Source: Halieaceae bacterium (lineage in GTDB: Bacteria > Pseudomonadota > Gammaproteobacteria > Pseudomonadales > Halieaceae). Taken from it: 42,092 nucleotides of DNA. Position 1 is the first letter of the stretch. Every line of letters starts with the position of its first letter. The translations under genes were made by a program, and so were the position numbers. Below the pieces are notes generated by a model. That model saw only the letters and a list, made by a program, of their open reading frames with translations. It did no database searches and was not told the origin of the DNA. The stretch is taken from assembly GCA_902631395.1 (NCBI GenBank), contig CACOYM010000016.1:1-42092 (forward strand), written 5' to 3'. This document shows, piece after piece, positions 32,715 through 42,092 of this stretch.

Positions 32715-32990
32715 ATGCCGGAGTTACCTGAGAGCCACGTACGTCAGATCTATTGGCGTAAGAACAGGCGTTTGATGCTGGTCCTAGGGACCATTTGGTT
32801 TGTGGTTAGTTTGGGCTGTGGTGTGCTGTGGGTTGAGCCGCTTAATACTGTTCAGATCGGCGGCTTTAAGCTGGGCTTCTGGTTTGCTCAGCAAGGCGCT
32901 ATCTACACATTCATCATCCTGATTTTTGTTTATGCGCGAGTTATGGCGCGTCTCGAGCGGCAGCTTGGCCTTCAGGAGCCCGAGGCATGA
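32715..32990 (+). CDS. DUF4212 protein, small subunit of a sodium:solute symporter
   Basis: 91 residues starting at ATG 32715, with GGAGCG 8 nt upstream; a longer frame from TTG 32616 is unlikely because it covers the promoter region. YWRKNRRLMLVLGTIWFVVSL and the second hydrophobic segment (GAIYTFIILIFVYARVM) are the two membrane helices typical of DUF4212 (YjcH-like/TIGR03647). Its stop overlaps the start of the large symporter subunit by 4 nt (ATGA), so the two are translationally coupled. Confidence 0.88.
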   Translation: MPELPESHVRQIYWRKNRRLMLVLGTIWFVVSLGCGVLWVEPLNTVQIGGFKLGFWFAQQGAIYTFIILIFVYARVMARLERQLGLQEPEA

Positions 32991-34711
32991 GTTTGATGGA
33001 AACCACTTACTGGGTCGTTGGCGCCTCGTTTGTGCTGTACATCTGGATTGCCATCCGATCTCGAGCGGGAACGACTCAGGAATTCTACGTGGCTAGCAAA
33101 GGTATTCACCCCGTTGCCAACGGTATGGCGACGGCCGCTGATTGGATGTCTGCAGCTTCTTTCATCTCCATGGCGGGATTAATCGGGCTGTCATACAACG
33201 GGTATGGCGGGTCGGTATTTCTGATGGGCTGGACCGGCGGATACGTAATTCTGGCGATGCTGATCGCTCCTTATTTGAGGAAGTATGGCAAGTTTACTGT
33301 TCCCGAGTTCATTGGTGACCGTTACTACTCAGACACCGCGCGGGTGGTGGCAGTGATCTGTTTGATCATTTGCTCCGTGACTTACGTGATCGGTCAAATG
33401 AAAGGCATTGGCGTGGCCTTCTCGCGCTTCCTCGAGACGGACTACGAGACGGGTTTGCTCTCTGGCATGGTGATTGTCTTTTTTTACGCCGTGCTCGGCG
33501 GCATGAGAGGGATCACTTACACCCAGATCGCACAATTCTGTGTGCTGATTTTTGCCTATATGGTACCGGCAATTTTCATCAGTCTTCAGCTAACTGGTCA
33601 GCCTATTCCGCAGTTAGGTCTTGGGTCGACATTAGCCGATGGCACTTATCTTCTTGAGAAGCTCGATCAAACGCTGCTGGATCTCGGGTTTCAGGAGTAC
33701 ACCACTTCGGTGCGCGGCAGCACTCTCAATATGGCGGCGTTTACTGCCTCGCTGATGATCGGCACAGCGGGTCTGCCTCACGTCATTATCCGTTTCTTCA
33801 CGGTGCCAACTGTGAGTGCCGCCCGGACCTCCGCCGGCTGGGCGCTTGTTTTTATTGCCATTCTCTACACCACAGCCCCCGCAGTGGCTGCCATGGCTCG
33901 CCTCAACATTATCCAGACGCTGGAGCCTCAGCCAGGGCAGCACCTAGCTATCGAGGAGCGTCCTGAGTGGTTTAAAAACTGGGAGCAAACGGGTCTGTTG
34001 GGCATCGACGATAAAAATCAGGACGGTCTCATTCAGTACTCTGCCGACTCACAGATCAATGAGCTGGTGACATTGGATAATGACATTTTGGTGCTGGCCA
34101 ACCCCGAGATTGCGAGACTGCCGAATTGGGTGATTGCGTTGGTGGCGGCCGGTGGCTTAGCGGCGGCACTATCGACCGCTGCAGGGCTGTTGTTGGCGAT
34201 CTCGTCCGCGATTTCACATGACCTCTTGAAACGAACCCTGCTACCAAACATTTCGGAACGTCAGGAGCTTATGGCGTCGCGGCTAGCCATGGCGTCGGCG
34301 GTACTGGGTGCGGGTTATCTCGGCCTAAATCCGCCTGGGTTTGTGGCGGGCACAGTCGCTTTGGCATTTGGTTTGGCCGCCGCTTCCCTTTTCCCTGCCC
34401 TGCTGTTGGGTATTTTCTGCAAGCGAGTAACACGAGAAGGCGCTGTCTTGGGGATGCTGGCCGGGATTGGTGTCACCTTGGCGTATGTGTTTCAGCATAA
34501 AGGCGTAATGTTTATACCTGACACCAGCTTTTTGGGTGATCTCCCTGCCAATTGGTTTTTCGGGATTGAGCCAAATGCCTTCGGCGTTGTGGGTGCCGTC
34601 GTCAACCTTGCTGTGACGTTGACGGTGACACGTTTTACCGCGCCGCCGCCGGAGCCGGTGCAACGACTGATCGACGACATTCGCGTGCCAGCTGCAACCA
34701 CGCGTATTTAG
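32987..34711 (+). CDS. sodium:solute symporter, VC_2705/ActP-like
   Basis: Inner-membrane secondary transporter of the SSS family with about 13 predicted helices. FYVASKGIHPVANGMATAAD and WMSAASFISMAGLIGLSYNG near the N-terminus are the classic SSS and ActP-like Na-site region. TAGLPHVIIRFFTVPTVSAAR and AALSTAAGLLLAISSAISHDL follow. An insert of about 60 residues (about 305-365), rich in acidic and polar residues, marks the VC_2705 subfamily. Substrate is probably acetate or another short carboxylate, from its pairing with DUF4212 and the divergent acs. That is inference. Its stop overlaps the stop of convergent panC by 4 bp. Confidence 0.9.
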   Translation: MSLMETTYWVVGASFVLYIWIAIRSRAGTTQEFYVASKGIHPVANGMATAADWMSAASFISMAGLIGLSYNGYGGSVFLMGWTGGYVILAMLIAPYLRKYGKFTVPEFIGDRYYSDTARVVAVICLIICSVTYVIGQMKGIGVAFSRFLETDYETGLLSGMVIVFFYAVLGGMRGITYTQIAQFCVLIFAYMVPAIFISLQLTGQPIPQLGLGSTLADGTYLLEKLDQTLLDLGFQEYTTSVRGSTLNMAAFTASLMIGTAGLPHVIIRFFTVPTVSAARTSAGWALVFIAILYTTAPAVAAMARLNIIQTLEPQPGQHLAIEERPEWFKNWEQTGLLGIDDKNQDGLIQYSADSQINELVTLDNDILVLANPEIARLPNWVIALVAAGGLAAALSTAAGLLLAISSAISHDLLKRTLLPNISERQELMASRLAMASAVLGAGYLGLNPPGFVAGTVALAFGLAAASLFPALLLGIFCKRVTREGAVLGMLAGIGVTLAYVFQHKGVMFIPDTSFLGDLPANWFFGIEPNAFGVVGAVVNLAVTLTVTRFTAPPPEPVQRLIDDIRVPAATTRI

Positions 34712-37105: not shown

Positions 37106-37600
37106 TCACTGCGGGAACCTGCACAATACGCGAATCGTTTGATCCGCGCACTCTGCCTGCAGTGCACCCAGAGAGCCCTTTCCCGGCAAAATGTAGTGCT
37201 CACCCAGAAGTTCAGTCAGCGGATCCAATACGAATCGTCGTCGATGAGCGCGTGGGTGAGGCACTATCAGAGACGCTGAATGCAGCTCGAGATCGTCGAA
37301 AAACAGGAGATCAAGGTCGATACAGCGTGCGCCCCAGTGCCGGTTCCGTTGCCGACCCATTTCAAGCTCGGTGTCGAGCAGATACTGCAGTAGTGACTGC
37401 GGTGCCAGAGTGGTGTCGGCGACAACTACGGCGTTGTGGAAGTCCGGTTGGTCTTGCGGCCCGACAGGGGCTGAGAGATACACTCGTGACAGCATTGCGG
37501 GAGAGATGTGTGGATGGGCACCGATGTGCCCGAGCGCGTTTGCTAATTGCTCTAGCGGTTCGTTAATGTTGGACCCAAGCCCGATGGCGACGCTACTCAT
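37106..37600 (-). CDS. folK: 6-hydroxymethyl-7,8-dihydropterin pyrophosphokinase
   Basis: Makes the pyrophosphorylated pterin used by FolP. Motifs: AIGLGSNINEPLEQL at the N-terminus, YLSAPVGPQDQPDFHNAVV, and the catalytic region NRHWGARCIDLDLLFFDD followed by LIVPHPRAHRRRFVLDPL. 164 residues. Its ATG overlaps the pcnB stop by 4 nt, the conserved pcnB-folK coupling. Confidence 0.96.
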   Translation of the reverse strand: MSSVAIGLGSNINEPLEQLANALGHIGAHPHISPAMLSRVYLSAPVGPQDQPDFHNAVVVADTTLAPQSLLQYLLDTELEMGRQRNRHWGARCIDLDLLFFDDLELHSASLIVPHPRAHRRRFVLDPLTELLGEHYILPGKGSLGALQAECADQTIRVLCRFPQ

Positions 37601-38910
37601 GAGGCGGGCTTCCTGCGCCGCGGGCGCGATCGGCGTCTGCTTTCGCTCTCATGGCGCCCTCGTTTGCTTCCCACGAGTTCGGGGTATTGAAGCTGCTGCG
37701 CGTTCCAAAATGCACTGCATTCATCATTCACTTCGCTGCTGGCCTCTCGCAGCAGTCGAAGATCGAACGCTGCACGGAACCAACGATGGGCCAGCAGGTC
37801 CTTGATTTTCTTGGGTGGACGCCGCTCTAGTCGGGGTTGCAGGTCCCATATGTCGCGCATGGCAAAAGAAAAGCGCTTTGGTATGGCCAGATGCTGACAA
37901 GTTTCTTGCACTATTTGCTGCCCTGCGATGTGCATTGCCTGAAGAGCAGACTCGCCTCGAGCCATCAGTTCACCCGCACGCCTCTCAGCAGCAGGCCACA
38001 AAAGTGCCGCCAACAAAAATGCGGGTGTCACGGGTCTATCCTCAGCCACTCTGTGATCAGTATCGGTCATCGCTTGGTGCTGCAACTGCCGTGCTGCACT
38101 AGCATGATTGGCAACGTTAATACCATCCCCCATCAAGTGTTTCAGCAGATCATGCTCGCGCAGTAGCGCAAAGGCGGGCGCCGAGAAGCCATTCATGAAC
38201 AACTTGAGCCACTCGTCAAATAACCTCGCAGACGGAATATCTCGCAACAAGATTCCAGTCTCTGCGATAGCGTTGCGAGTGCTGGGTTCGATCTCGAACT
38301 TTAGGCGTGCAGCGAATCTTAAAACCCGCAGCATACGCACGGGATCCTCACGATAGCGATCAGCGGGTGTACCGATGATGCGGATGACGCGGGCTGTAAC
38401 GTCAGCTTGCCCATTCATTTTGTCAATGAGTGCATGCGCTGTGGTGTCGTAATAAAGCGCATTGATCGTCAGGTCGCGCCGCCGTGCGTCGTCATCGAGG
38501 GAGCCATAGACGTTGTCGCGAAGTAAACGGCCGGATTGGCTCGCTTGGGCCGCCGGATCCGAGCCCTCCGTGTCATGATGGCCACGGAAAGTTGTGACCT
38601 CGATGATATCCCGGCCTGATCGAACATGAACGATTTGAAAGCGGCGGCCGATAATGCGAGCGCTGCGAAAGCATCGCTTGATTTGCTCAGGTGTGGCGTT
38701 GGTGGCGACGTCGAAGTCTTTGGGTTTTTTCCCTAGAAGGAGGTCTCGGACGGCGCCACCCACGACGTAAGCGTCAAAGCCCCGATCTTGCAGCCGCTCG
38801 ACTACGTGAATTGCCCCTGAGGAAAAATCACTGGACTCAAACACGACTGCGCGGTGCTCTATGCTCAACAGATTGATATAGCGTGCATTCCAGCAATATC
38901 CCTGTGTCAA
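37597..38910 (-). CDS. pcnB: poly(A) polymerase I
   Basis: Adds 3' poly(A) tails that promote RNA decay. Nucleotidyltransferase core with YVVGGAVRDLLLGKKPKDFDVAT (the two catalytic Asp in DFD), RCFRSARIIGRRFQIVHV and EVTTFRG. RRRDLTINALYYD and the RNA-binding EDPVRMLRVLRFAARLKFEI, which separates poly(A) from CCA enzymes in this family, follow. The Arg-rich tail (RRRSRPRRRKPAS) is usual. 437 residues from the start used; a shorter start is possible since the first 25 residues are not conserved. Confidence 0.95.
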   Translation of the reverse strand: MTQGYCWNARYINLLSIEHRAVVFESSDFSSGAIHVVERLQDRGFDAYVVGGAVRDLLLGKKPKDFDVATNATPEQIKRCFRSARIIGRRFQIVHVRSGRDIIEVTTFRGHHDTEGSDPAAQASQSGRLLRDNVYGSLDDDARRRDLTINALYYDTTAHALIDKMNGQADVTARVIRIIGTPADRYREDPVRMLRVLRFAARLKFEIEPSTRNAIAETGILLRDIPSARLFDEWLKLFMNGFSAPAFALLREHDLLKHLMGDGINVANHASAARQLQHQAMTDTDHRVAEDRPVTPAFLLAALLWPAAERRAGELMARGESALQAMHIAGQQIVQETCQHLAIPKRFSFAMRDIWDLQPRLERRPPKKIKDLLAHRWFRAAFDLRLLREASSEVNDECSAFWNAQQLQYPELVGSKRGRHESESRRRSRPRRRKPAS

Positions 38911-38993
38911 CCGACGTGGTTATTCTAGGATCATGGAAAGCCTTGACGCTATGATGCGTGAGGTGGGTCGGAGAGTCAGGGGGCGCTGCTGTG

Positions 38994-39098
38994 AAAAAAG
39001 GCCCAACGCAAAGAAACATGGGGAAGTCGCCTTCCCCACCCAGGTCCGTTATGACATCGTTTTTCTTATTGGGCCGGTTATTATTATTTAGGCTCTGT
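38994..39098 (-). ncRNA. candidate small RNA in the crcZ position
   Basis: A predicted transcript of about 105 nt starts about 12 nt below a sigma-54 promoter. It carries A-rich AANAANAA-type motifs (AAATAATAATAA at 39079-39090 and AATAAGAAAAAC near 39060-39070). It closes with a strong GGGGAAG-GCGA-CTTCCCC hairpin (39020-39037) inside a GGCCCAA/TTGGGCC stem (39069-39075 with 39000-39006), followed by six T. Pseudomonas CrcZ lies in the same place, between cbrB and pcnB, is CbrB/sigma-54 dependent and sequesters Hfq/Crc through such motifs. CrcZ is several times longer, so homology is inferred from position and design only. Confidence 0.6.
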
Positions 39099-39107
39099 CT
39101 AACGATG

Positions 39108-39123
39108 TGCAGGCGGCATGCCA
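39108..39123 (-). promoter_or_regulatory. sigma-54 promoter
   Basis: On the minus strand TGGCATGCCGCCTGCA fits the -24/-12 consensus TGGCACG-N4-TTGCA, with exactly 10 nt between GG and GC. It points toward the small RNA and pcnB and lies next to a sigma-54 activator gene. Confidence 0.7.
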
Positions 39124-39197
39124 CATTGGGAAAATCCCGAGAAAACACTAACTTGTCCATATTTTGACCGGTTTCGGCGAGAGATGCATCGTATGAG

Positions 39198-39224
39198 TGT
39201 TACGTATTTGCACCAGTGTGTTAC
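39198..39224. promoter_or_regulatory. paired TGTTAC boxes, probable activator-binding sites
   Basis: TGTTAC at 39198-39203 and 39219-39224, spaced 21 bp (two helical turns), lie about 75-115 bp upstream of the sigma-54 promoter. This is a usual place for enhancer sites. The same box and its complement occur upstream of the activator gene (40656, 40690). Confidence 0.5.
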
Positions 39225-39248
39225 GGAAATTCACTAAATTAGTACGAA

Positions 39249-40607
39249 TCACGCGATACGTTGCTTATTGCGAGGAATGCCAAAGCGTTGCCGTCGCTCC
39301 CATAGACACTTCCGGCTGATGCCCAATTTCTGAGCAAGCTCTGTTTCGTTCATTGCGTCTTGGTGCTCCAAAACAAACCGTTGGAAATAATCTTCAAGTG
39401 AGAGCTCCTCGGTCGTCTCCGGTCCCTCAGAGGTCGAGGCGGCCCGATGGGGCTCGGAAGACGATGCAGCCTCTTGTGCTGGCCCGGTTGGGCTGTGGGA
39501 GAGACTGAGAGCTAGTGAGGCGCCTTCAGACATCACCATTGCGCGCTCGATGACGTTCTGCAACTCCCGTACGTTTCCTGGCCAATCATGAGAAGCAATC
39601 TGTTCGACACTGTCTTGTGATAGAGGCCGCACTGGCAGCCCCAGTCGATGCGCGTGCTGTTGAATAAACCACTCTGCCATCGCCAAGATATTGTGGCCTC
39701 GCTCTCGTAACGGTGGAATAGCGATTCGCAGTACATCGATCCGGTAGAACAGATCCTGGCGAAACGCATTTTTTGCAGCGAGTGCAGATAAATCGCGGTG
39801 GGTTGCGCAAATAAGTCTGACGTCCACTTTCTTGCTGCTGACTGAGCCAATCTGGCGTATTTCGCCCTCCTGAATAAATCGAAGCAAACGAGCTTGAGCC
39901 GGCAGTGGTAATTCCCCAATTTCGTCTAGAAACAGGGTGCCGCTGTCTGCCGCCTCAATCAGGCCAATTCGATTCCTGGTTGCGCCCGTAAAGGCGCCTT
40001 TTTCGTATCCGAACAGTTCCGCCTCAATCAGGGTGTCTGGAATGGCAGCGCAATTGACGGAGATCAACGGCCGAGCTGATCTGCTACCTAGGTTGTGTAT
40101 TTCGCGCGCAGCAAGCTCCTTGCCCGTCCCCGTCTCACCCACGATTAAAACAGATGAATCAGTGGATGCGGCGCGCTGAACATTGCGTTGCAATGTGGCC
40201 ATCAAGGGGCACCCTTCGTGCTGAAAATGATGAACAAGTGGTTTACCGTTTTCTTGGGCGACCAACTCCTTACAAAGTGCTATCAACCATTGCGCGATTG
40301 ACTCGAGGGACGCTGATCGAGGATGTGCGTCGACGGCGCCATCGCGCGCCACCTGCATAATACGGGCTGTATTGCTTTGCGGCAGTAAAGCGGCGACTGG
40401 CTTAGGCCACACCTGTCTGCTCAGCTTTGCCAATGAGTCGGCATGGAGATGCTGCCCGATAACGTACAGGTCAGCGTCTGGGTGCCACTCATTCAGGCTG
40501 TCTCGCTCCCGCGCGTCACTCTCGCATAGGTCGATACCGGCTGACTGCAGGCGAATCGCCAATTCCTTTTGCAGAGTCGGGTCATTGTCAATCAGTTGAA
40601 TACGCAT
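39249..40607 (-). CDS. CbrB-like sigma-54 transcription activator with degenerate receiver
   Basis: Bacterial enhancer-binding protein of 452 residues. The N-terminal 115 residues follow a response-regulator fold (IQLIDNDPTLQKELAIRLQSAG) but read DLYVIGQHL where the phospho-acceptor Asp is expected. The switch Thr and Lys positions are also changed. The AAA+ domain is complete: VGETGTGKEL, GYEKGAFTGA (sigma-54 contact loop), GTLFLDEIGELP and DWPGNVRELQ. The C-terminal Fis-type helix-turn-helix ELAQKLGISRKCLWERRQRFGIP is very like Pseudomonas CbrB. Gene position (gluQRS side, then pcnB) also matches cbrB, but the kinase gene cbrA is missing. It likely works by phosphorylation-independent control. 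Confidence 0.88.
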   Translation of the reverse strand: MRIQLIDNDPTLQKELAIRLQSAGIDLCESDARERDSLNEWHPDADLYVIGQHLHADSLAKLSRQVWPKPVAALLPQSNTARIMQVARDGAVDAHPRSASLESIAQWLIALCKELVAQENGKPLVHHFQHEGCPLMATLQRNVQRAASTDSSVLIVGETGTGKELAAREIHNLGSRSARPLISVNCAAIPDTLIEAELFGYEKGAFTGATRNRIGLIEAADSGTLFLDEIGELPLPAQARLLRFIQEGEIRQIGSVSSKKVDVRLICATHRDLSALAAKNAFRQDLFYRIDVLRIAIPPLRERGHNILAMAEWFIQQHAHRLGLPVRPLSQDSVEQIASHDWPGNVRELQNVIERAMVMSEGASLALSLSHSPTGPAQEAASSSEPHRAASTSEGPETTEELSLEDYFQRFVLEHQDAMNETELAQKLGISRKCLWERRQRFGIPRNKQRIA

Positions 40608-40655
40608 AGCACCCCTCTAACGAATTGATTTTTCTAATCAGGAATTCACTCAAAA

Positions 40656-40695
40656 TGTTACCGCGAAGTGTCACCGTACGAGTGGAAAGGTAACA
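40656..40695. promoter_or_regulatory. TGTTAC/GTAACA boxes upstream of the activator gene
   Basis: TGTTAC (40656-40661) and the inverted GTAACA (40690-40695) flank a 28-bp spacer, 49-88 bp upstream of the start. They match the boxes before the small RNA and suggest autoregulation. Confidence 0.45.
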
Positions 40696-40709: not shown

Positions 40710-41585
40710 TCAATTCCCAACTGGGAGTGACCAGTGCTCAGTCGAGTGCTCAAGGATGTCCATTACAGTGGTCGCAGATTCTGGCGGCGGCGTTTGTTTC
40801 AGGTGCGAGAGGGCGCTACGAAGGTTCTGAGCGGCGAAATCTACTTCCAATGCTGCTGCGCCGGTCTGTTTGCTGAGCTTGTTACCTAGCGCGTTATTTA
40901 CAAGGGTTACATGGGCGTAATGGGGTGGCTCAAGGCCCAATACTTGCTGTAACCAGCGTTGGCGATAGGTGGAATCAAGCAAGTCAGCTCCGCGAACAAT
41001 TGAATTGAATTGAGGTTGTGCGTCGCCCACTGCCGCTGCAAGTTGATAGGCGTACAGACCATCGCGACGCTTCACAATAAAATCGCGAGGCACAGCCCTG
41101 CTTTCAAGCAGCTGTGGCCCAAGAAATCGATCGTCAAACTCATAGGTTTGCGCCGTGTCGAACCGCACGCGCAAGCTATGCGGCTCGTAGGTCGTTACCT
41201 CGCGACTTGCACAGTCTTGGCCGCAGGTTCCATGAATCGACAGTGTCGCGCGCGTGCAGCGACACCGGAACAAACAACCGGCTTGACTCAACTGATAAAG
41301 TGCGTGCTCAAAGCGATCACTTTCCAGGGACTGATATGTCACCGGTCCATCCCATTCGAGGCCATGTTTCTGCAGCGCAAAGGTGATGTGTTCGACACTG
41401 CCGTCAACTTGTCTTAGGGGGTCTATATCATCAATTCTTAGTGCCCAGCTGCCCTGATGGTGGCGAGCATCAAGAAAGCTTGCCAGGGCCGCAACGAGGG
41501 ATCCTGCGTGCAGGGGGCCAGTAGGGGAAGGCGCGAAGCGTCCTCGGTAGTGAGGTGTAACGCGCTCAATGGGCGTTATGATCAA
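40710..41585 (-). CDS. gluQ: glutamyl-Q tRNA(Asp) synthetase
   Basis: A truncated glutamyl-tRNA synthetase paralogue that glutamylates queuosine in tRNA-Asp. [17 protein letters not shown] is the HIGH motif. [21 protein letters not shown] holds the zinc Cys set, DDRFLGPQ and [16 protein letters not shown] follow, and [11 protein letters not shown] is the KMSKS motif. No anticodon domain is present, as expected. I chose the TTG at 41585, which overlaps the dksA stop (TTGA) and has AGGA upstream; ATG 41636 would overlap dksA by 55 nt. The dksA-gluQ pair is conserved. Confidence 0.93.
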
Positions 41586-42092
41586 CCGAGTTCCTGCCGC
41601 TCCTTGATTTCTGCCAACGTCTTGCAGTCGATGCAAAGTGTTGCCGTTGGGCGCGCCTCGAGCCGTTGAATGCCGATCTCGATGCCACAGGCGTCGCAGT
41701 AGCCGTAGTCGTCGTTTTGCAAACGATCCAGCGTAGAGTCGATTTTCTTTATGAGCTTGCGCTCTCTGTCACGAGTTCGAAGCTCTAGACTAAATTCTTC
41801 TTCTTGAGTCGCTCTATCGGCTGGATCAGGGAAGTTAGCTGCCTCGTCTTTCATATGCGATACGGTACGAGAGACCTCATCAACTAGCTCGCCCCGCCAG
41901 TTCAGCAAGATGCCGCGGAAATGATCGATTTGCTCGTCGTTCATGTAATTCTCACCACGTCCTGGCTTGTAGGGCTTGAAGTCGTCGAATTTCTGAAGTT
42001 GACCGACGGCCCGGGCAATCTTCCCCGTTGACTTTTTTTTGGTTGCCACTTTTTTCTTGGCGGTCGCTTTTTTGGTGGGCGTCTTTTTCGCT
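41582..42092 (-). CDS. dksA: RNA polymerase-binding factor DksA, 5' end probably outside window
   Basis: Works with ppGpp to reset transcription in starvation; it binds the polymerase secondary channel. The coiled coil with the tip DxxDxA motif ([14 protein letters not shown]) and the C4 zinc finger ([27 protein letters not shown]) are complete. A GTG at 42049 could start it. However, the frame stays open to the window edge through a Lys/Ala/Thr-rich stretch ([15 protein letters not shown]) continuous with the N-terminus, so the real start is probably beyond the edge. Confidence 0.95.

Follow-up and report, generated by a model that had tools for sequence, protein, structure and literature searches.

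The CbrA–CbrB–CrcZ system of Pseudomonas and Azotobacter joins a histidine kinase (CbrA), a sigma-54 activator (CbrB) and small RNAs (CrcZ, CrcY and CrcX) to Hfq and Crc. In the passages of a 2022 review that bear on its distribution, Pseudomonas and Azotobacter are the only genera for which the cbrA–cbrB–crcZ set is described, and the set is called unique to Pseudomonadaceae (PMC8871633). Extracts of another paper describe CrcZ as a 426-nucleotide (nt) sponge and give A-R-N as the binding rule of the Hfq distal face, the N base being shown to Crc without sequence preference (PMC6422490). Here we describe a related locus in a 42,092-nt stretch of DNA from a marine Halieaceae bacterium related to Halioglobus ("the window"; GenBank assembly GCA_902631395.1, contig CACOYM010000016.1, positions 1 to 42,092, forward strand), in which a CbrB-type activator that has lost its receiver phosphosite probably drives, independently of a kinase, a minimal CrcZ-like RNA that would act as an Hfq/Crc sponge.

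The locus resembles the Pseudomonas/Azotobacter system in its gene slot, the apparent orthology of CbrB, the spacing of the inner operator sites, the -24/-12 promoter, the A-R-N motifs and the terminal hairpin, and Hfq, Crc and RpoN are all present. It differs in that no CbrA was found, that the receiver phosphosite and the outer operator site are lost, and that the RNA is ~90 nt rather than ~400 nt long, carries two A-R-N stretches and was not detected in the source genome by the Rfam CrcZ model (RF01675). Circuits that include CbrA, in Halieaceae and in related families, share the slot and the RNA module and differ in having this kinase, a canonical receiver and the outer operator site. HP1043 of Helicobacter and ChxR of Chlamydia are orphan response regulators of the OmpR type whose receivers are independent of phosphorylation. 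The output domain of the present protein may likewise work without the phosphoacceptor Asp; unlike HP1043 and ChxR, it is a sigma-54 activator, and its kinase-bearing orthologues survive in sister genera. Judged from sequence, the system extends beyond the source genome, throughout the family and into parts of the order. The open-licence literature that we searched yielded no paper dealing with CbrB or CrcZ in this family, and PMC13022988 contained no related terms. Counts below cover genomes or loci of the genus of the source genome ("the genus") unless stated otherwise, and the "window clade" is the Gly clade of this genus, defined by its CbrB receiver.

Promoter, operator and predicted small RNA

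On the minus strand, the gene order is dksA, gluQ, the sigma-54 activator gene, the intergenic RNA and pcnB. The syntenic slot is bounded on one side by gluQ (40710–41636, minus strand; PF00749, with the gene name taken from position and length) and on the other by pcnB (37597–38910, minus strand; PF01743, PF12627 and PF12626). The original prediction, made from the letters of the window alone, had placed a GG-N10-GC sigma-54 promoter and a counterpart of crcZ in this slot. At the sequence level, the slot, the operator spacing, the sigma-54 promoter and the A-R-N motifs bear out both the positional and the regulatory correspondence. The promoter (TGGCA-N7-TGC; TGGCATGCCGCCTGCA, 39123-39108) lies where it had been placed, at 39108–39123 on the minus strand, and neither TGGCA nor TGC varies among the 51 genus loci that cover this DNA (47 scored by script and four by reading); a contig end truncates the 52nd locus, L203. 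The GG/GC elements and the A-rich motifs, whose loss in relatives had been named as grounds for abandoning the prediction, are both kept.

Upstream of the promoter, two CbrB-type GTAAC subsites on the minus strand occupy the R1 (39220–39224) and R2 (39199–39203) positions, at -101 and -80 from the -24 T, and each has a counterpart in 50/50 genus loci. In the sections of PMC6296734 on P. putida, the F1 subsite of CbrB is TGTTAC, and its R1 and R2 subsites are both of the GTAAC type (GTAACA). Three full-CrcZ genomes of group f21, which was taken as Pseudomonadaceae from their full-length RF01675 matches (307–320 bits), carry GTTAC at -123/-124, GTAAC at -102/-103 and GTAAC at -80 to -82, again from the -24 T. 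Among the 18 non-genus loci with a promoter, GTTAC occurs at -120 to -125 in 17, GTAAC occurs near -80 in all 18, and a middle site is found in 15 (GTAAC in 12 and GTTAC in three). Within the genus, a 140-base pair (bp) scan found the outer GTTAC site in 0/50 loci and both inner GTAAC sites in 50/50. From these counts and from the receiver counts below, we excluded L221 (no cbrB) as well as L203 and L217 (cbrB outside the stretch); L216, which holds the end of cbrB only, entered the operator count only. Since the operator spacing is common to the genus, the non-genus loci and the full-CrcZ genomes, the crcZ promoter is the most likely ancestor of the RNA promoter.

The putative CrcZ-like RNA spans ~90 nt at 39010–39097 on the minus strand (genus-model match, 39004–39097), both ends being predicted. 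It would begin with CAGAGCC, ~12 nt beyond the promoter GC. In 22 genus sequences, conservation sets in at AGAGCC, the expected sigma-54 +1, with 0.45 bits of information per column in the 12 columns that precede the predicted +1 versus 1.62 bits in the RNA core. Two A-rich stretches, both on the minus strand, then follow: motif 1 (AAU AAU AAU AAC; AATAATAATAAC; 39077–39088) conforms to (ARN)4 in 39/40 distinct genus RNAs, and motif 2 (AAU AAG AAA AAC; AATAAGAAAAAC; 39059–39070) does so in 40/40. In these 40 RNAs, the minor letters at the A, R and N positions number 1, 0 and 40 for motif 1 and 0, 8 and 67 for motif 2, the eight at R all being G, which is permitted there; the A-R-N frame was picked after the first 22 sequences had been viewed. 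Five further genus RNAs, which fell outside the script pattern owing to a hairpin variant or a contig end and are not among the 40, all read by eye as (ARN)4 twice. The two stretches vary nearly only at the N of the A-R-N triplets, and this pattern of variation is that of the Hfq distal-face rule.

Downstream lies a conserved box (GACCUGGGU; 39038–39046, minus strand), which reads GACCUGG[A/G]U in 25/25 RNAs chosen by a pattern that itself covers part of the box; a false match in L225 was removed from this set, and L018, L022, L021, L023, L036, L127, L221, L223 and L224 were outside the pattern and excluded. The box is kept across several families, the Asp-clade RNAs of the genus having GACCUGGGC, and L023 and L036 having GACCUCCAGA. 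It is followed by a terminator-like hairpin (GGGGAAG-GCGA-CTTCCCC; 39020–39037, minus strand) and a T-rich tail (ATGTTTCTTT). An RNA of ~105 nt ending at 38994 had originally been proposed. Its start, near 39098, all but coincides with ours, but its end does not, as the first hairpin and tail place the likely 3′ end near 39010, giving ~90 nt. Position 38994 fits instead a possible second terminator arm (TTGGGCC and T6; 38994–39006, minus strand), which pairs with GGCCCAA at 39069–39075 in a fold of the window sequence; 4/200 shuffled sequences fold as well as the fold with this second, longer-range stem.

Since a 107-amino acid (aa) open reading frame (ORF) overlaps the conserved block in the window, the block could be part of a small protein, or else of a cis-acting pcnB leader. 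This reading is extremely unlikely, as the RNA lengths of 92–95 nt shift the frame among relatives, an ATG falls within the first 60 nt in just 28/40 distinct RNAs, the variation tracks the A-R-N phase, and the hairpin and T-rich tail close the RNA ahead of pcnB.

At an expectation value (E) of ≤0.01, a model built from the 22 genus sequences, which match by construction, gave a single match in each of 52/57 genus genomes, as well as matches of 65 down to 37 bits, many of them weak, in 76/83 other family genomes. A wider model of 25 RNAs, some of whose rows derive from the genomes searched, detected the module in 26/110 order genomes from 13 families. No Rfam match was found in window positions 38700–39300 at E ≤ 5. 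RF01675 was silent in the source genome, but since it was silent in all 14 control genomes as well, this control is uninformative. Across the order, RF01675 matched in 22/115 genomes, six of them above its cut-off, and weak matches, at 30.2 and 22.8 bits against a cut-off of 95, fell on the RNA in two other Halieaceae genomes, in one of which (G130) the match coincides in place with that of the genus model. As read, the loci form a series from the ~400-nt CrcZ to ~90-nt forms. Two tandem RNA modules were seen in five loci of CbrA-bearing relatives (L031, L032, L230, L126 and L034). In the g87 genome G178 (L221:560-1020), gluQ and pcnB enclose neither cbrA nor cbrB, and an RNA-like stretch persists there with A-rich motifs and the GGGGAAG/CTTCCCC hairpin (genus model, 37.4 bits, E 0.004); by eye, this stretch has no clear -24/-12 promoter.

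CbrA and the receiver of CbrB

The gap between the end of gluQ and cbrB measures 102 bp and contains no gene, in agreement with the predicted absence of cbrA from this position. Across the 48 genus loci containing both genes, no CbrA match was found between them at E ≤ 1e-8. When a 1002-aa CbrA query was searched against 90 family genomes, no orthologue was found in 13/13 genus genomes, three of which are single-contig, and the hits obtained were partial only (E 1.9e-12 to 5.1e-38). The source genome, a 2.30-Mb draft of 60 contigs that is 89% complete and includes the window as contig C16, gave a best hit of E 8.0e-15, and no CbrA with an SLC5 domain was found in it. Since this genome is incomplete, single absences in it are weak proof, and the claim is carried by the genus-wide pattern. 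Outside the genus, CbrA matched at E = 0 in 61/77 family genomes, one of which is the query's own. G139, a genome from the source family (f1), is 100% identical over CbrA to the Halioglobus record L032. The match in G154 was full-length (1.6e-289), CbrA was found in pieces in G166, G170, G188, G190 and G216, several of them cut at contig ends, and the match in four g94 genomes was limited to the kinase half, in ~400-aa frames. No clear CbrA orthologue was found in G141, G164, G178 (g87), G156 (g102), G162 (g108) and G219. In the g94 loci L223, L224 and L225, the ~400-aa histidine kinase half, lacking the SLC5 part, stands immediately before a canonical cbrB.

The window activator (39249–40607, minus strand; 452 aa) has a sigma-54 activator domain (PF00158, E 2.2e-66) with an AAA lid, intact AAA+ motifs and DNA-binding domain, and a degenerate receiver; Walker A GETGTGKE and GAFTGA are present in 49/49 genus CbrB proteins. 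In a quick tree, it grouped with the CbrB proteins of the three full-CrcZ f21 genomes, apart from three NtrC-type paralogues of its own genome, with a Shimodaira–Hasegawa-like approximate likelihood ratio test (SH-aLRT) support of 88; the tree contains three very long paralogue branches, and its support for orthology is moderate. Synteny agrees with this grouping, and we take the activator, with moderate confidence, to be the CbrB orthologue in a slot of the form gluQ–(cbrA)–cbrB–RNA–pcnB.

Residues 1 to about 114 (40266–40607, minus strand) form a pseudo-receiver, in which Asp is replaced with Gly51, Lys with Arg97 and Thr with Leu. PF00072 (receiver) gave no match in the activator at E ≤ 0.1. 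A structure model, built from 8 rows and poor overall (predicted local distance difference test score 57.4), was used only for the order of the receiver elements, and shows strand/helix alternation in this part at moderate confidence. As the original prediction had claimed, the receiver Asp is missing: residue 51 aligns with the Asp of CbrA-bearing relatives, no Asp falls at the phosphosite of the window protein, and the Asp, Thr and Lys of a phosphorylatable receiver are absent on the alignment. In 25/25 loci with CbrA beside cbrB (three of which carry a half-length CbrA), the Glu, Asp, Asp, Thr, Tyr and Lys of a canonical receiver are invariant. The genus proteins show three states. The Gly clade (19 proteins, including that of the window) has Gly at the phosphosite, Arg instead of Lys, and either Leu or Ser instead of Thr; the Glu clade (13) has Glu at the phosphosite and an otherwise full set of acidic pair, Thr, Tyr and Lys; and the Asp clade (17) keeps the Asp, with Ala in place of the switch Thr. 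In a tree built from the remaining domains, each state formed one clade (100/98, 97/81 and 100/100), with long branches meeting according to the tool's warning. L222, from a single kinase-less g108 genome, has Asn at the phosphosite and falls among the CbrA-bearing rows of this tree.

For pairs whose AAA+ domains are 65–85% identical, receiver versus AAA+ identity was 35/73% in the Gly clade (147 pairs) compared with 72/71% in proteins accompanied by CbrA (217 pairs), and was 73/73% in the Glu clade and 74/82% in the Asp clade. The Gly-clade DNA-binding domain has a mean identity of 91%. The divergence of the Gly-clade receiver would suit a decaying relic, in which the kinase is gone, the receiver is drifting and the RNA is being lost, as would G178, with its slot devoid of cbrA and cbrB, its Crc paralogue only and its leftover RNA-like stretch. 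We nevertheless consider decay very unlikely, because the AAA+ motifs, the DNA-binding domain, the promoter and the A-R-N phases are kept genus-wide. Alternatively, CbrB may still be controlled by a signal, through another kinase in the Asp (or Glu) clade or through a ligand or partner that binds the Gly pseudo-receiver. The Gly-clade domain is kept in 19/19 proteins, with W67, P68 and R97 fixed across the clade where CbrA-bearing relatives have other residues, and Asp and Lys are retained in 17/17 Asp-clade proteins, all of which fits such control. On the other hand, the phosphoacceptor is missing from this site in the Gly clade, whose domain drifts fast, and no partner was identified in a search limited to CbrA; we regard continued signal control as rather unlikely.

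CbrB may also act on its own gene. In the window, GTAACA (40656–40661) and TGTTAC (40690–40695), both on the minus strand, lie ahead of cbrB, and at least two GTAAC/GTTAC sites occur within 110 bp upstream of cbrB in 49/49 genus loci, compared with a maximum of 3 per clade in shuffles. Since such pairs were found in all of these loci but in 7/18 non-genus loci (18 of 26 were tested), and in 0/17 cases upstream of cbrA, the distribution suggests autoregulation by CbrB.

Hfq, Crc and candidate targets

Hfq and RpoN are present in the source genome; Hfq was found in 14/15 genomes given, the exception being G156, and RpoN in 11/12, the exception being G017. The original prediction had proposed searching the genome for crc, and a Crc orthologue is indeed present (L240:507-1292). 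Its best PDB match is Crc 4jg3 (4.9e-55) and its next Crc 4f1r, followed by 2myi (6.6e-51), which is deposited as an exodeoxyribonuclease III and which we take to be Pseudomonas syringae Crc, and by the exonuclease 2jc5 (2.4e-32), the structure preferred by a paralogue, L233. A frame read as pyrE adjoins this crc gene, and crc also lies beside pyrE in Pseudomonas. Crc-like hits, 48–56% identical to Halioglobus Crc, were obtained in 12/13 genus genomes. L240 scores above the NCBIfam exodeoxyribonuclease III cut-off (TIGR00633; 140.8 vs 99.05 bits), and automatic annotation may therefore misname Crc.

The gene bchC was found in 25/25 genus genomes given and is a possible Hfq/Crc target, which would link carbon state to phototrophy. 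The A-R-N pattern AANAANAA occurs between 60 bp upstream and codon 6 of bchC in 9/23 genus loci (27 were fetched and four partial pieces excluded), namely in 6/8 of the window clade, 0/7 of the Asp clade and, for the remaining three, in the Glu clade; these occurrences were not counted as evidence. A bchC leader of the window clade with an A-R-N stretch near the start is found at L268:18345-18422.

Elsewhere in the window, frames beyond pcnB were read from their ORFs as what we take to be folK and panB/panC. Past the panC-like ORF, a sodium:solute symporter gene (PF00474) occupies 32987–34711 on the opposite strand.

A proposed kinase-less CbrB circuit and its implications

We propose that the circuit is a kinase-less descendant of CbrA–CbrB–CrcZ. 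CbrB, free of phosphorylation control, would bind the two GTAAC sites ~80 and ~101 bp upstream of the -24/-12 promoter and, with RpoN, drive the ~90-nt RNA, whose two (ARN)4 stretches would load Hfq, together with Crc, on its distal face and lift Hfq/Crc translational repression. With no cognate kinase detected and the phosphoacceptor missing from this site of the Gly receiver, either CbrB abundance, probably under autoregulation via its own GTAAC/GTTAC sites, or a new input via the pseudo-receiver would determine output. Pseudomonas CbrB is called "barely dependent on phosphorylation" in excerpts of one paper (PMC6296734), and its unphosphorylated form is given as 40% active in vitro in excerpts of another (PMC8871633), so that loss of CbrA would leave a working activator.

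Several observations weigh against this interpretation. For a sponge, two is a small number of Hfq sites. Covariation was sought in the genus hairpin and none was found, the stem being invariant in 22 sequences; stem position 7 among the 25 RNAs (GC in 15, GU in four and AU in six) gives a weak sign of it. CbrA fell short of E = 0 in 16/77 family genomes outside the genus, several of which are incomplete, and the site pairs upstream of cbrB recur in 7/18 non-genus loci, so that they do not go hand in hand with loss of the kinase. G017, which belongs to the genus and has a completeness rating of 100%, has cbrB and the RNA but no RpoN hit and a Crc paralogue only, and represents either an assembly loss or a counterexample. 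Finally, AANAANAA was not enriched at translation starts (4/338 genes vs 7.5 expected from shuffles) in a scan that covered 442 kb of the 2.30-Mb source genome and took gene starts from a simple ORF rule; the targets of the RNA may thus be few, or the RNA may have another role.

This lack of enrichment favours a different role, that of an Hfq-dependent base-pairing small RNA in which Hfq recruitment is the sole task of the A-R-N stretches and the GACCUGG[A/G]UGGGGA block is the messenger RNA seed, and the block is conserved more than the terminator seems to require. However, the last part of the block belongs to the hairpin stem, a sponge already accounts for the crcZ-like position and for the separate conservation of two (ARN)4 sites, and Crc is retained in 12/13 genus genomes. 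Base pairing therefore appears improbable to us, and a kinase-independent CbrB driving an Hfq/Crc sponge remains our favoured explanation.

A fuller account can be offered more tentatively, with somewhat less than an even chance of being right. After the loss of CbrA, the genus would have made CbrB a one-component regulator by three separate routes, namely Glu at the phosphosite, Asp without the switch Thr, and a Gly pseudo-receiver in which new residues became fixed; dosage through its own GTAAC/GTTAC sites would then set the level of a ~90-nt, Hfq/Crc-titrating RNA without a phosphorelay, and phototrophy genes, bchC for instance, may be released by this RNA in the window clade.

In conclusion, parts of the CbrAB–CrcZ system occur across Halieaceae and in further families of this order, with an RNA that is far shorter. 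With the kinase lost, the genus displays several receiver states side by side, a natural series in which one can test how far CbrB needs phosphorylation and what minimum number of A-R-N sites an Hfq/Crc sponge requires. A marine lineage with phototrophy genes would thereby gain a small RNA not covered by Rfam, along with a Crc labelled as exodeoxyribonuclease III by an NCBI model.

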